This document shows, piece by piece, positions 10,833 through 17,688 of a stretch of DNA of 42,675 bases; positions within the stretch are counted from its first letter, which is position 1, and every line of letters begins with the position of its first letter. Under the pieces are notes generated by a model. It saw nothing but the letters and a program-made list of their open reading frames with translations. It was not told the origin of the DNA and searched no databases. The stretch covers positions 1 through 42,675 of the forward strand of contig CAJQQO010000195.1 of NCBI GenBank assembly GCA_905480475.1, given 5' to 3'. The translations under genes and the position numbers were made by a program. This DNA comes from an uncultured Pseudomonadales bacterium (GTDB lineage Bacteria; Pseudomonadota; Gammaproteobacteria; Pseudomonadales; UBA7434).

Positions 10833-12110
10833 TTAGTTAATTCCCATGGCGTGTTTGATAATGCGATTTTTAATCGCGCCTCTTTTATCCAGCGCGCTCA
10901 TTCCAGCGTTTCGCAACCAACGTAATGGTAGTGGTAGTGGCGCAAATAAACGCTTAAAACCTTCTACTGCCGTCATCATCGCAAGATTGTCTGCTTTGCG
11001 CTCTCGCTGGTAACGACTTAACACCTCGATATCGGCAATACTTTGCCCGCGCGCATGGGCAGTAAGAATACATTCAGATAATACCGCAACATCAGCCAAG
11101 CCAAGATTAATTCCCTGCCCGGCAAGTGGGTGAATAGTATGTGCCGCATCGGCAAGCAAAGCAAAACCGGGTTTTACGTAATCGATAGCATGGCGTTGGC
11201 GCAGTGGAAAACTAAAGCGTTTGGAACAAGACTGCACTTTACCTAGCTTATGCTCAAATGCCTGCCCTAAGGCCTGACAGAATTCCGCGTCATCCAAAGC
11301 CATGGCCTGTTCAGTTTGCTCGCCTGTTTGCGACCAGACAATAGAACAAAATTGATCTTGCTGATCGCTTGCTGAGAGCGGCAAAAACGCCAACGGCCCA
11401 TAGGGTGTAAAACGCTGCCAAGCAGTTTTTTGATGTTGATGCTCAACCGCTACCGTGCAAACCAAAGCATCGTGTTGATAATCCCACTCTCGGGTTGTCA
11501 GCCCTGCCATTTTGCGCAGCGGTGAATTCGCCCCATCGGCAGCAACCACTAAAGTGCTATAAATAACTGTCCCGTCAGCTAAGCTTATTTGCTGGCTTTT
11601 CGAATCCGGCGATTTTGTTTTCGGATCGGCCAAAAGCAAATCCGCAACCGGCTGCCCTTGAAAGATTTGAATATTGGCGTTTTCGCGCAAACGATTAACC
11701 AAGGCCGCAACCGTAACCCGGTTTTCAACGATATGGCCTAAAACATTTGACCTGACATCCGCCGCATCAAAAGCAATTTCACCAGTACCTTCAGCATCCC
11801 ATACTTGCATTTGCTCAAAGGGGCTCACTCGTTGTTGCGCAATCGCGGGCCAAGCGCCAATACGCTCTAATAAGTTTTGCGAGGCAATCGTTAAAGCACT
11901 AACACGCGGATCAAAGCCATTGACATCGCCTTCGCAAGGTGGCCACTCTTCGGGTAAGTTTTGCGCCTCGATCAGTGCAATACGCAGAGGCAGTTTTGAT
12001 GACTGACCGGATTGCGAGTCACTAGCGACAGACAAAGCACACGCTAGCGCACTGCCCGCGATACCTGCACCCACTATGGCGACATCATATTGCTCGTTTA
12101 ACCCAGCCAT
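10833..12110 (-). CDS. ubiI: FAD-dependent ubiquinone hydroxylase UbiI/VisC-type
   Basis: 425 residues, UbiH/UbiF/VisC family of flavin monooxygenases. VAIVGAGIAGSALA (about 10-23) binds the ADP part of FAD, VVAADGANSPLRK is the mid-protein DG motif, and LLADAAHTIHPLAGQGINLGLADVA is the second FAD signature. It hydroxylates the C5 of the ubiquinone ring (family knowledge; member roles differ between species). Its start overlaps the end of ubiH by 13 bases, so translation is probably coupled. A GGTGG ribosome-binding site lies inside ubiH. The order ygfB-pepP-ubiH-ubiI supports naming it UbiI rather than UbiF. Confidence 0.92.
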   Translation of the reverse strand: MAGLNEQYDVAIVGAGIAGSALACALSVASDSQSGQSSKLPLRIALIEAQNLPEEWPPCEGDVNGFDPRVSALTIASQNLLERIGAWPAIAQQRVSPFEQMQVWDAEGTGEIAFDAADVRSNVLGHIVENRVTVAALVNRLRENANIQIFQGQPVADLLLADPKTKSPDSKSQQISLADGTVIYSTLVVAADGANSPLRKMAGLTTREWDYQHDALVCTVAVEHQHQKTAWQRFTPYGPLAFLPLSASDQQDQFCSIVWSQTGEQTEQAMALDDAEFCQALGQAFEHKLGKVQSCSKRFSFPLRQRHAIDYVKPGFALLADAAHTIHPLAGQGINLGLADVAVLSECILTAHARGQSIADIEVLSRYQRERKADNLAMMTAVEGFKRLFAPLPLPLRWLRNAGMSALDKRGAIKNRIIKHAMGIN

Positions 12111-13501
12111 TTTCTACCACCTAATCCCGCTGCTTGATCAGCAAATCGATTTTTAGCCGGGCGCAATAAATCTAATGCCAGCAAACCAATAGTGCGACCT
12201 AGCTGCACCGGCAAAGCTTGCAAACCAAATAATTCAATTAAATTATGACTAAAGCCAATCGTCAGATTTTGATCGGATAGTTGTGTTGCTGCATAGTCAT
12301 CTAATAAATCCATCGAACCAATATCTTGATTATGCTGTCTGGCATTTATAATTCGCTCTACTAGTGCAGCCACATCTCTTAACGCCAAGTTAAAACCTTG
12401 GCCAGCGACCGGATGCAAAGAGTGAGCAGCGTTACCCATAATGACAATATGATTGCGATAAACTTCATCGCTTAAAGTTAGCGCCAGTGGATAAAACTGT
12501 CTTTGACCTACTCGCTCAATCGCACCAAGCCTAAAACCAAAGGCCGCTTGTAACTCGGCGCTAAAATCTTGCTCGCTTAATTCTGCTAATGCTTGTGCGG
12601 ATAATTTATTATCTGAATTTTCAACTGACGCAGCAGCATCTGATTCTGATGCCGGCACTGTCCAAACTAAAGCGCTACGATTTTTAGCATCAGCTAAATC
12701 TGCCAGCGGTAAAAAAGCGACTGCACCATCGGCAGTAAAACGTTCAAAGGCTTGGCCGTGATGAGGTAATTGCGTTTGTATATTGGCAATAACCGCTTGC
12801 TGTTGATATTGCTTAACACTGGCCGAAATACCCAAACTTTTACGCAGGCCGGATTGCGCGCCATCAGCAACAACTAACAAGCATGCCTCGATAGTTTGCG
12901 GCGGCTGTAAGGATTCGCTTTGCGCATCACTCTTAGCTTTAAGCGGACTAACCTCAACCGTAGCGCCACCTTGTACAGGTTTGATATTAGCAACCGAGGC
13001 ACCGGTCACTAATTCAATTGCCGGCAAGTCTGCCATGCAATCAAGTAGCACCGCACCTAACCATTGGTTTTCAATCACATAACCAAATGCTGTTTTATTT
13101 TGTTCTTCGGCATCCAGCAAAGTACTACCAGTATGACCACGATCAGACACATGTATTTGACGAATGGCTTCCGCGTGTTGCAACAAGGAGGGCAATATCC
13201 CCATCGTTTGATAAATTTCTATACTCGCTAAAGAGAGTGCTGTTGAGCGCGCATCAAAGCTGGGATGATATGTCGGTGGCGGCTTTTTCGCGCCGGCCGC
13301 TGGGCGTCTAAGTGGGAAATTATCCACCAGCAATATAGATAGAGGCTGTGATTTTGCCGCGTTCGGCTTTTTATCTGCTATCGTTTTTTTATCTGCAATG
13401 GCTAGCGCACAAGCTAAACTCAAGCCAACCATACCACCACCGGCGATAATAATATCGTATCGGCTTTTGCTTGGTAGAGCGGCCTGCTTATCCAAAATCA
13501 T
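12098..13501 (-). CDS. ubiH: 2-octaprenyl-6-methoxyphenol hydroxylase UbiH
   Basis: 467 residues. IIIAGGGMVGLSLACALA (17-34) is the FAD Rossmann motif, VVADGAQSGLRKSLG the DG motif and GNAAHSLHPVAGQGFNLALRD the second signature. The enzyme hydroxylates the C1 position of the benzoquinol ring in aerobic ubiquinone synthesis, in a membrane-associated Ubi complex. At 467 residues it is longer than the E. coli protein (about 390), from inserted Ala/Lys/Ser-rich loops, for example KKTIADKKPNAAKSQP near residue 37 and KAKSDAQSESLQPP in the middle; these probably lie at the surface. An AGAGA ribosome-binding site precedes the ATG. It is second in operon order after pepP. Confidence 0.93.
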   Translation of the reverse strand: MILDKQAALPSKSRYDIIIAGGGMVGLSLACALAIADKKTIADKKPNAAKSQPLSILLVDNFPLRRPAAGAKKPPPTYHPSFDARSTALSLASIEIYQTMGILPSLLQHAEAIRQIHVSDRGHTGSTLLDAEEQNKTAFGYVIENQWLGAVLLDCMADLPAIELVTGASVANIKPVQGGATVEVSPLKAKSDAQSESLQPPQTIEACLLVVADGAQSGLRKSLGISASVKQYQQQAVIANIQTQLPHHGQAFERFTADGAVAFLPLADLADAKNRSALVWTVPASESDAAASVENSDNKLSAQALAELSEQDFSAELQAAFGFRLGAIERVGQRQFYPLALTLSDEVYRNHIVIMGNAAHSLHPVAGQGFNLALRDVAALVERIINARQHNQDIGSMDLLDDYAATQLSDQNLTIGFSHNLIELFGLQALPVQLGRTIGLLALDLLRPAKNRFADQAAGLGGRKWLG

Positions 13502-13545: not shown

Positions 13546-15300
13546 TTACTTCTTTGCGCCGGACTTCTTTTTAAGCGCTTTTTTCTTTTTAAGCACTTTT
13601 TTCTTTTTAATCAGGGCCTTGTTTTTTACTGCGGTTTTTTTCTTGATCGTTAATTTTTTCTTTGCGGACGATAGGGGTTTTTTACCCAGCTTATTTTTGA
13701 CTTTGGCTTTTTTCGCTTTAGCTTTTTTTACTTTCGCAGATTTCTTGCTTGCCTCTTTGGTTTTAATTTTAGCTTTAGCTTTACTTTTCGCCGTGCCTTC
13801 ATTTTTTAACGGTGCAAAAAGATCGTCAGATTCTATAGCCTCTGACTCGCTTGGCGCGGCAGTAGAAATAAAGTCCATTTGCGCAGGGTCAACAGCTTTT
13901 TGATTGCTGGCTGGTTGCATTAACGCATGAATTTCATCAACGGTCTTAACTACATCATGAGTTAAGACTTCATGGCCTTTTGGATTTTGACTAAGCGCAG
14001 TGACCAACACATCATCTTCAATACGAATGCCAATACCACGCCACTTGGCGGCGACATTTTCGTTATCCGGTGCAATATAAATTCCCGGCTCTACCGTCAT
14101 CACCATACCCGGCTCTAACACACGCCATTCGTCATGCACTTTGTAATCACCGACATCGTGCACATCCATACCCAACCAGTGACCGGCGCGGTGCATATAA
14201 AAAGGTTTATAGGCTTCGCTGGCGATCAGCTCTTTTAAGTCGCCACGTAACAAGCCTAAATCTAACAGCCCTTGAGTAATCACCTTAACCGTTGCGTCGT
14301 GCGATTGATTCCAGTGATTGCCCGGTTTAATGGTTTTAATTGCCGCTAACTGCGCATCTAATACTACTTCATATAAAGCTTGCTGCTCTTTGCTAAAGCG
14401 GCCGTTGGCGGGGAAAGTTCGAGTAATATCGGCGGCGTAACAATTTAATTCACAGCCTGCGTCAATTAAAACTAAATCACCGTCGCGAATCATCGCGTTA
14501 TTTTCAACATAATGCAAAATACAGGCGTTTTTACCGGCACCAACAATAGAATTGTACGCAGCGGCTTGCGCGCCATTAACTGCAAACTCATGCAGATACT
14601 CTGCCTCAAGTTCATATTCCATCATACCCGGTTGGCAAGCGGCCATTGCGCGAGTATGTGCTGCGGCAGATATTTCTGCGGCGCTTTGCATAATACGTAT
14701 CTCGGCAGCGCTTTTATATAAACGCATATCATGCAAGAGATGATCAAGATCTAAAAATTCGCCCGGCGGATGCGCACCCGATCGCGCATTGGAGCGCAGC
14801 ACATTAATCCAATCCATTAAACTTTTATCAAACTCGGGACGTTTACCCATCGAGTAGTAAACGCGCTCGCGACCTTCCATCAGGCCCGGCAGAATATCGT
14901 CGATATCACTAATCGGAAATGCATCATCTGCGCCAAAGTTTTCACAAACGCCTTCTGGCCCTTGACGATAACCATCCCAAAGCTCGCGCTCACGATCTCG
15001 CTCGCGGCAAAACACAATACATTGACCATGCTTACGCCCGGGAATCAGTACCAACACAGACTCCGGCTCGTTAAAGCCGGTTAAATAATGAAAGTCACTG
15101 TCTTGTCGAAATTTAAATTCGGCATCACGATTGCGAATAACATTGGTCGCCGAGGGAAGTATCGCAATACTGTCGGTTTCCATTTGAGCCATTAAATCGC
15201 GACGACGACGGGCAAACTCTCGTTTACTAATGGTGGGCGTCAACTTGGATTGCGCTTTAACGGTTTTTTTTGTCGTGCTAGTTGGAGCTGTTTTTTTCAT
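13546..15300 (-). CDS. pepP: Xaa-Pro aminopeptidase PepP with lysine-rich C-terminal tail
   Basis: Aminopeptidase P removes N-terminal residues before proline, using two Mn ions. The creatinase/PepP N domain spans about 26-200. The pita-bread domain has all five metal ligands: Asp280 and Asp291, His374, Glu404 and Glu428. The family is normally about 440 residues, but this protein is 584. Residues 501-584 are a low-complexity tail with 40 Lys out of 84 and two acidic residues, made of repeats such as KKKKVLKKKKALKKK. A short Lys/Thr-rich N-terminal extension (1-22) is also present. The tail resembles bacterial histone H1-like segments and may bind nucleic acid or polyanions (inference). Its gene DNA is T-rich and repetitive, so tail length could vary. 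Confidence 0.94.
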   Translation of the reverse strand: MKKTAPTSTTKKTVKAQSKLTPTISKREFARRRRDLMAQMETDSIAILPSATNVIRNRDAEFKFRQDSDFHYLTGFNEPESVLVLIPGRKHGQCIVFCRERDRERELWDGYRQGPEGVCENFGADDAFPISDIDDILPGLMEGRERVYYSMGKRPEFDKSLMDWINVLRSNARSGAHPPGEFLDLDHLLHDMRLYKSAAEIRIMQSAAEISAAAHTRAMAACQPGMMEYELEAEYLHEFAVNGAQAAAYNSIVGAGKNACILHYVENNAMIRDGDLVLIDAGCELNCYAADITRTFPANGRFSKEQQALYEVVLDAQLAAIKTIKPGNHWNQSHDATVKVITQGLLDLGLLRGDLKELIASEAYKPFYMHRAGHWLGMDVHDVGDYKVHDEWRVLEPGMVMTVEPGIYIAPDNENVAAKWRGIGIRIEDDVLVTALSQNPKGHEVLTHDVVKTVDEIHALMQPASNQKAVDPAQMDFISTAAPSESEAIESDDLFAPLKNEGTAKSKAKAKIKTKEASKKSAKVKKAKAKKAKVKNKLGKKPLSSAKKKLTIKKKTAVKNKALIKKKKVLKKKKALKKKSGAKK

Positions 15301-15423: not shown

Positions 15424-16236
15424 TTAATGCATGGTTTTATTACCGGGCCGAAAAAGTTTGGAGACACTCGCCGGTGATGCTTGATCAGGCGCATCGCTGA
15501 TAGGGCTTTGCTCGAGCATTTCTATCCAACCATATTCGGTAAATACAGTAATCGCCGCTAAACGCAAATATTCAACGATCTCCATATAATCCCGCTCGGC
15601 CGCTTCGGCGTCATTCGCATCGGCTTCGTATTCTTCTCCATCTTCAGTAAGTACGCCGTCTACGTCGAGAGGATCACCCATAAAACCGTCGTCGTCACCG
15701 TCTTCCTCGTAGCCATCATCTAAATCCTCAACAATCGCTTGCGCAATGGCGGATAAATCCTGCAAGGCTTCCTGAACATTTTCTGGCAAGGAAAGCCCAG
15801 ATCGCGAACGGCCTTCGGGTGAATCTGACTCGGGCTGGCTTTTCTGTAAAAACACCTGCGCCTCGGCAAAACCACCCAAAAAACCTTTGCACCAGCTGCT
15901 TAAGCCTTCGGTACGCTGTTCAATGGGTTCGTCGTCATCGGGCAAAAATGGCTGAAAAATCAAATCTTCACTCGCCAGCATTTCTAGCTGCTGTCTGGCC
16001 ATCCCACCCAATGTCGCCTCGGCAAGCTCACTGAAGTGGCCAATCACATGTTGCGAGGCTCCCATCACGGCCAAGCCAAACTGCGCCCATTGCGACGGTG
16101 GCAAGCGCATACAGCCCGATAAGCTGCCGATAAAAGCGCCATGCAACTCAGAGGGAGAAAACTGGCTATCGACGGTTATTAGCCAATCGGCCAGCTCGTC
16201 AAAATTGTCTGGCGGCGGTATGTTCTGATAATTCAT
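15424..16236 (-). CDS. ygfB: UPF0149 family protein YgfB, with acidic C-terminal extension
   Basis: 270 residues from the ATG at 16236 (MNYQNIPPPDNF), which fits the family start and has AGG upstream. The UPF0149/YecA domain includes ELHGAFIGSLSGCMR and LSSWCKGFLGGFA, two family motifs. In Pseudomonas a YgfB homologue affects antibiotic resistance by binding a transcription antiterminator; elsewhere the role is unclear. The protein is longer than the usual roughly 190 residues. An acidic segment (EEDGDDDGFMGDP, then EDGEEYEADAND) lies inside the C-terminal half, followed by a short family-like helix (YMEIVEYLRLAAITVF) and a poorly conserved end. It is the first gene of the pepP-ubi cluster; the minus-strand promoter at 16318-16346 fits. 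Confidence 0.9.
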   Translation of the reverse strand: MNYQNIPPPDNFDELADWLITVDSQFSPSELHGAFIGSLSGCMRLPPSQWAQFGLAVMGASQHVIGHFSELAEATLGGMARQQLEMLASEDLIFQPFLPDDDEPIEQRTEGLSSWCKGFLGGFAEAQVFLQKSQPESDSPEGRSRSGLSLPENVQEALQDLSAIAQAIVEDLDDGYEEDGDDDGFMGDPLDVDGVLTEDGEEYEADANDAEAAERDYMEIVEYLRLAAITVFTEYGWIEMLEQSPISDAPDQASPASVSKLFRPGNKTMH

Positions 16237-16317
16237 AGTGAACCTAAAAGATGGCTTAAAAATCACTGCTGGATAAACGCTAGAAAAGACTTAGCCATGG
16301 CAGTCATTAAGGGATTG

Positions 16318-17511: not shown

Positions 17512-17688
17512 GAACTCCCTGAGGTATTCGCCAGTCAGCATGTCCTTGAGCCGATAATACCCACCCGGAGGTTTCACGCTTTATCTGTGTGCATGCCCGG
17601 CATGACCGGGAAGCCTGCGATCCTGCTGGAACCACCACCTTGAACCTGTCGGTTCGAGGCCGCACGACAGCGGTACCCTGGGGTGTTC
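17512..17688 (+). ncRNA. ssrS: 6S RNA
   Basis: About 177 bases between zapA and ygfA, the classical 6S RNA position. The 5' part reads ctccctgaggtattcgcc and gtccttgagccgataa, close to the E. coli 6S start (CCCTGAGGTGTTCGCCAG... CTGAGCCGATA). The 3' part has caccttgaacc and accctggggtgtt, also conserved, and the two ends pair into the long closing stem with a few wobbles. 6S RNA mimics an open promoter and sequesters sigma70 RNA polymerase in stationary phase. The 5' end is set by the promoter; the 3' end is approximate (about 17685-17690). Confidence 0.92.

Follow-up and report, generated by a model that had tools for sequence, protein, structure and literature searches.

In Pseudomonas, the proteins AlgP and PhaF carry histone H1-like domains in which a disordered, lysine-rich, repetitive C terminus is attached to a folded N-terminal domain. 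The C-terminal region of AlgP is needed for the spacing of polyphosphate (polyP) granules, with which AlgP associates, and the homologous region of PhaF is thought to bind DNA (PMC9239181). Actinobacterial TopA, HupB/HupS, and Ku are likewise normal proteins apart from the lysine repeats at their C termini. Those of TopA stabilize it on DNA, and Ku and HupB are further precedents (PMC7398561). In RNase R and YihI, lysine-rich regions bind polyP and are important for ribosome-related functions (PMC12345225). Finally, eukaryotic MAP2, which has the M24 fold, contacts rRNA through a poly-lysine stretch that passes through the major groove (PMC10808355). We describe such a tail on an aminopeptidase P (PepP), a widespread housekeeping enzyme whose role is to trim peptides that contain proline. 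Tails of this kind are already known, but PepP is an unusual carrier, and our literature search found no report of a lysine-rich aminopeptidase P.

The DNA analyzed here (the window) is a 42,675-nucleotide stretch from an uncultured Pseudomonadales bacterium. Its pepP open reading frame has an ATG start and a TAA stop and encodes 584 amino acids (Table 1). The product scored 520 bits against the NCBIfam PepP equivalog model NF008131 (cut-off, 465), and two Pfam domains were above their cut-offs, AMP_N (residues 29-148) and Peptidase_M24 (residues 203-435). D280, D291, H374, E404, and E428, which we take to be the metal ligands (D, D, H, E, E) from their positions in E. coli PepP, are invariant in 67 sequences. 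The predicted fold of the body is like those of E. coli PepP (1a16 and others) and P. aeruginosa PepP (5wze), and it matched 5wze_A with 69% identity, a TMt of 0.97, and an rmsd of 1.1 Å. The catalytic domain had been called complete when the sequence was first read, and these results agree. The window pepP is the ordinary chromosomal gene, and its product is complete, has an intact predicted fold, and is predicted to be catalytically competent and cytosolic. A genome search found this gene to be the sole strong PepP match in the window's own genome. Its neighbors are a familiar set in the usual pepP-ubiH-ubiI order, with genes for a ZapA-like protein and 5-formyltetrahydrofolate cyclo-ligase also nearby. 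The upstream neighbor is presumably a member of the UPF0149/YgfB-like family. The short N-terminal arm of PepP varies among congeners.

Table 1. Features in and around pepP (window coordinates)
Feature	Position	Strand	Basis
UbiH/UbiF/VisC-type hydroxylase (ubiI position)	10833..12110	-	TIGR01988 over cut-off
ubiH, downstream neighbor	12098..13501	-	NCBIfam NF004356 over cut-off
pepP CDS (Xaa-Pro aminopeptidase, 584 aa, including stop codon)	13546..15300	-	ORF, NCBIfam, Pfam
Lysine-rich C-terminal tail, residues 501-584 (40 K, 2 D/E)	13549..13800	-	composition; predicted disorder
18-bp tandem repeat x 2.6 under tail, 96% match	13565..13610		repeat scan
15-bp tandem repeat x 2.7 under tail	13694..13734		repeat scan
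Linker, residues 463-500, motif DPAQMDFI (about 472-479)	13801..13914	-	congener alignment
Catalytic two-domain PepP body, residues 24-462	13915..15231	-	conservation, predicted fold, 5wze_A match
Short basic N-terminal arm, residues 1-23	15232..15300	-	charge about +5.5
UPF0149/YgfB-like protein (presumed), upstream neighbor	15424..16266	-	NF002562 4e-24, below cut-off
6S RNA (ssrS)	17513..17688	+	Rfam RF00013, 100 bits

The solved PepP homologues share the catalytic body, metal ligands, and fold of the window PepP, but they end after the last helix (about 440 to 452 amino acids), whereas the window protein is about 120 residues longer. This extra length includes the 84-residue tail. The sequence-only reading had counted 40 lysines and two acidic residues in the tail, and our recount was exact. 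The tail has a net charge of about +38 and a pI of 11.1, and its densest stretch holds 13 lysines in 20 residues. In contrast, the body (residues 1-465) has a pI of 5.6, a charge of about -14, and 4.9% lysine. At that lysine frequency, the binomial probability of 40 lysines in the tail is about 1e-29. Among the window open reading frames of at least 60 amino acids, only PepP has so basic a stretch. In an AlphaFold2 model built with 67 homologues, most of the body had a pLDDT above 90, whereas the tail scored about 40 to 53 and had no secondary structure. (This model replaced an earlier one built from 10 close sequences, which had a mean pLDDT of 33.) The tail is therefore predicted to be disordered.

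The composition of the tail, rich in lysine and almost free of acidic residues, bears out its earlier description as H1-like. The resemblance is one of composition alone. The tailed protein had no match to HC2 or a related Pfam model at an E value of 1 or less. Only one of the 84 tail residues is proline, and the KPAA tandem repeats of the AlgP/PhaF domain are absent. AlgP and PhaF have such repeats on granule- and DNA-binding proteins, whereas PepP has KKK-rich runs with little proline on an exopeptidase. A search with the tail alone found almost nothing besides the tail itself, because of its composition. The linker before the tail contains a motif, DPAQ[MIV]DFI, that is kept in 8 of 12 congeners (it is missing in G003, G007, G008, and G010). 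It has no confident structure in the model and could be a short docking motif.

We examined PepP in the 12 species of this marine genus in our collection (one genome each), where it is the sole genus of its family. As the sequence-only reading had proposed, the PepPs of these close relatives were aligned, and a lysine-rich tail was present in frame in all 12. The tail and PepP are on a single contig in 11 genomes; in G010 the gene lies in two pieces on different contigs, and the tail is on the second piece. Counted from just past the last conserved helix region, the tails have 46 to 221 residues, 28 to 45% lysine, and 0 to 9 acidic residues, mostly in the linker. The shortest is that of G003, and the G005 tail runs to the edge of its contig and may be longer than measured. 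Length differs even between close species, such as G006 and G009. Thus, the order and length of the tail drift among species, but its composition stays. Two doubts raised at the outset can be set aside. In the window, translation of the tail DNA in either remaining frame of that strand meets several stops. This, together with the same kind of tail being in frame in 12 genomes, excludes both a frameshift and an error of assembly. The other doubt was that all close relatives might lack the tail, and instead all of them have one of similar composition.

Is the tail maintained, or is it tolerated low-complexity growth, in which A-rich repeats were expanded by slippage at a harmless C terminus and the tail has little function? 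A T-rich repeat that might slip had been noted beneath the tail; tandem units of 18 and 15 bp were indeed found there, but the DNA repeat is weak in the window. Tandem 18-bp units and the length differences between close species are what slippage would leave. (With one genome per species, changes in length are seen between species of the genus, and frame-broken tails are also seen between species.) By estimates that are approximate because repeat alignments favor K-to-K matching, dN/dS for pairs with estimable dS was 0.11 to 0.57 in the tail and 0.03 to 0.06 in the body, and aligned K/K columns of G004 and G011 held 35 synonymous lysine-codon differences versus 4 single-base nonsynonymous changes at lysine. 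Across pairs, synonymous differences likewise far outnumbered single-base nonsynonymous ones at lysine sites. Tail dN/dS is several times that of the body, as tolerated growth would give, but still below 1. These approximate values suggest that the tail is under selection against change, but loosely, with lysine kept while adjacent residues change. Unconstrained growth also fits poorly with in-frame tails in 12 of 12 species, with their steady lysine content and few acidic residues, and with the stops met by out-of-frame readings. We regard it as unlikely on balance, but as a serious rival.

We also asked how widespread the tail is. PepP was found in 357 of 392 genomes of an order sample. Among the matches listed outside the genus (about 140), all end by query residue 483 and have no tail. 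Fourteen long PepP frames from elsewhere in the order were read, and none has a tail; their extra length lies upstream. Those closest to the genus in the tree, among them Oceanicoccus and Dasania (Spongiibacteraceae), have no tail, and no such tail was present among the listed PepPs of other families of the order. A class sample of 151 genomes yielded one further genome, G488, with a lysine-rich PepP tail, and it was the only case among 10 long PepP frames checked in the class.

G488 belongs to an unrelated gammaproteobacterial family, f144, and this family has a second clade of PepPs with lysine/arginine tails (loci L149 to L169). In the genera g239 and g293, 44 to 149 residues follow the IEDD motif of PepP, and 18 of 21 PepPs hold at least 9 lysines there. 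PepP of G556 (genus g292) is tail-less, with no such lysines after IEDD, and G558, also in f144, had no PepP match. Therefore, the view that such tails are not known from PepP holds for the related families but not for f144. The tailed groups occupy two separate places in the PepP tree, each fully supported, with tail-less rows between. Two independent gains of the tail are thus the simplest reading. A single origin for both was considered, and an AU test that made them one clade gave p = 0.09, which is no formal rejection.

The second clade bears on tolerated growth in both directions. A tailed clade in another family, when the PepPs listed for hundreds of relatives have no tail, is not what such growth predicts. 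However, f144 also has frame-broken tails: in some species (L151, L162, and L168) the tail is truncated or frame-broken, so it is not always needed in this family. The tails of G488 and G542 appear to be frame-broken, and lysine-rich sequence goes on past the stop or in another frame. Ten genomes of the tailed genera were searched with a lysine-run DNA pattern and had 5 to 106 matches each, many of them in long arrays, whereas counts in G556 and G558 were near control. In G553, lysine-coding units of 18 bp form two arrays of about 900 bp (G553:C1:2353621-2354528 and 3850548-3851402), with nearly identical series of units. They probably encode long H1-like proteins or reflect the duplication of a gene.

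The same pattern was used to find other lysine-rich proteins in the genus of the window. In several genomes, proteins that bind DNA have lysine repeats, namely topoisomerase I (as a tail), a protein with an HU domain (as an arm), and an HC2/H1-like protein. The HC2/H1-like protein has 127 to 201 residues, and the window's own genome has one (L119, at G000:C281). Its HC2-like match is below the cut-off (31.1 versus 40 bits). This protein, which resembles the chlamydial HC2-type H1-like protein, is separate from PepP, and the PepP tail itself has no Pfam match. Over half of the residues of the HC2/H1-like proteins L119, L121, L124, and L133 are lysine, and in some species the protein ends in GPGRPKK or SPGRPKK, which is AT-hook-like. 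Enzymes are represented too. L135 (G003:C199) is a WS/DGAT wax-ester synthase-type acyltransferase with a lysine-rich tail (compare PhaF on storage granules), and L138 (G010:C95) has a lysine-rich N-terminal arm and a C-terminal part that resembles an alpha/beta hydrolase. G003 also has a further lysine-rich protein of no assigned family. Many other Pseudomonadales have lysine-repeat loci but no PepP tail, so genomic lysine repeats are not sufficient for the tail, and the genome-level link between the two is a correlation only. We considered whether the tail was captured from the genome's H1-like gene by recombination. This was unsupported by a comparison of shared DNA, because the longest strings shared by the tail and the H1-like gene were no longer than those from synonymous-codon shuffles in nearly all comparisons.

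These observations are firmer than they first appeared, with the tail a genus-wide trait that has a second occurrence elsewhere, and the tether suggested when the sequence was first read is a plausible interpretation. By analogy with the lysine tails of PhaF/AlgP, TopA, HupB, and MAP2, we lean, by a little, toward the tail being a maintained, nonspecific polycation by which active PepP would be tethered to nucleic acid (the nucleoid and/or ribosomes and RNA). A normal PepP would have gained a long disordered polycationic tail, in which composition and charge, and not the exact sequence, would be what is maintained throughout the genus. By electrostatics, the tail would bind cellular polyanions nonspecifically and hold PepP close to nucleoid DNA and/or polysomal RNA. 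This may raise the local PepP concentration where new proteins and peptides arise or turn over. The electrostatic tethering, the choice of polyanion, and the physiological benefit are all things we infer. Consistent with a tether are the steady lysine and few acidic residues of 12 tails that differ so much in length, and the intact ligands and fold combined with a tail predicted to be disordered. Lysine repeats on HC2/H1-like, HU-domain, and TopA proteins and on the WS/DGAT enzyme of the same genus also support it, as does the f144 clade, in which tailed genomes have lysine arrays and G556 and G558 do not. On the other side, the tail sequence appears to be weakly constrained, and slippage alone could produce part of the length drift. 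Also, the G003 tail is short, and some f144 tails are truncated or frame-broken.

Other partners for the tail were considered. Ribosome binding in particular is a special case of the tether, in which PepP would be placed at nascent N termini like MAP2. PepP and MAP2 share the pita-bread (M24) fold superfamily and an added polylysine arm. However, the MAP2 extension is N-terminal, alternates acidic and basic residues, and binds a eukaryotic rRNA expansion segment, whereas the PepP tail is C-terminal. Loss of the MAP2 poly-lysine weakens binding at the tunnel exit (PMC10808355), and Ebp1 is reported to bind there too (PMC7005732). The tail sequence does not favor ribosomes over DNA, nor does it separate either of them from membranes, and the other lysine repeats of the genus are mostly on DNA-binding proteins. 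To our knowledge, bacterial ribosomes also do not have ES27L, the element that MAP2 uses. We consider a specifically ribosomal tail rather improbable.

The tail might instead be a module that binds polyP through lysine polyphosphate modification, so that PepP would be parked there or regulated during stress. Its 13 lysines in 20 residues exceed the 9 in 20 of two polyP-binding P. aeruginosa proteins (PMC12077175), AlgP provides a precedent for association with polyP granules, and PPK1 is present in the window's own genome. However, just 4 of the 12 genus genomes (G000, G007, G008, and G010) had a PPK1 match, one of which also had PPK2, and no kinase was found in several genomes that are 91 to 97% complete (G002, G004, G005, and G009). 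Unless kinases were missed in draft genomes, polyP cannot explain a genus-wide tail. It is therefore disfavored as the universal ligand, and we think the polyP module very unlikely. Least probable of all, and hard to credit, is binding to an anionic membrane lipid or to the ubiquinone-synthesis complex encoded next door. pepP does adjoin ubiH and ubiI, but this gene order is common in tail-less relatives too. Polybasic stretches can bind anionic lipids, as is reported for EBP1 (PMC4941749).

With nucleic acid preferred as the partner, a broader idea can be offered tentatively, and we hold it to be doubtful. An exopeptidase might have been made nucleoid or ribosome tethered twice independently in Gammaproteobacteria, by an H1-like lysine tail that is a counterpart of the MAP2 arm, which would couple peptide trimming to translation or the chromosome. 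TopA, HupB/HupS, and Ku already act on DNA, whereas the substrates of PepP are peptides. Lysine-rich tails of bacteria are usually discussed on DNA, RNA, or storage-granule proteins; here, one is on a metabolic peptidase. With PepP well studied structurally and its tail easy to delete, a genus-wide case with a second family offers a direct test of whether such tails are portable localization tags for any enzyme or neutral by-products of lysine-repeat expansion.
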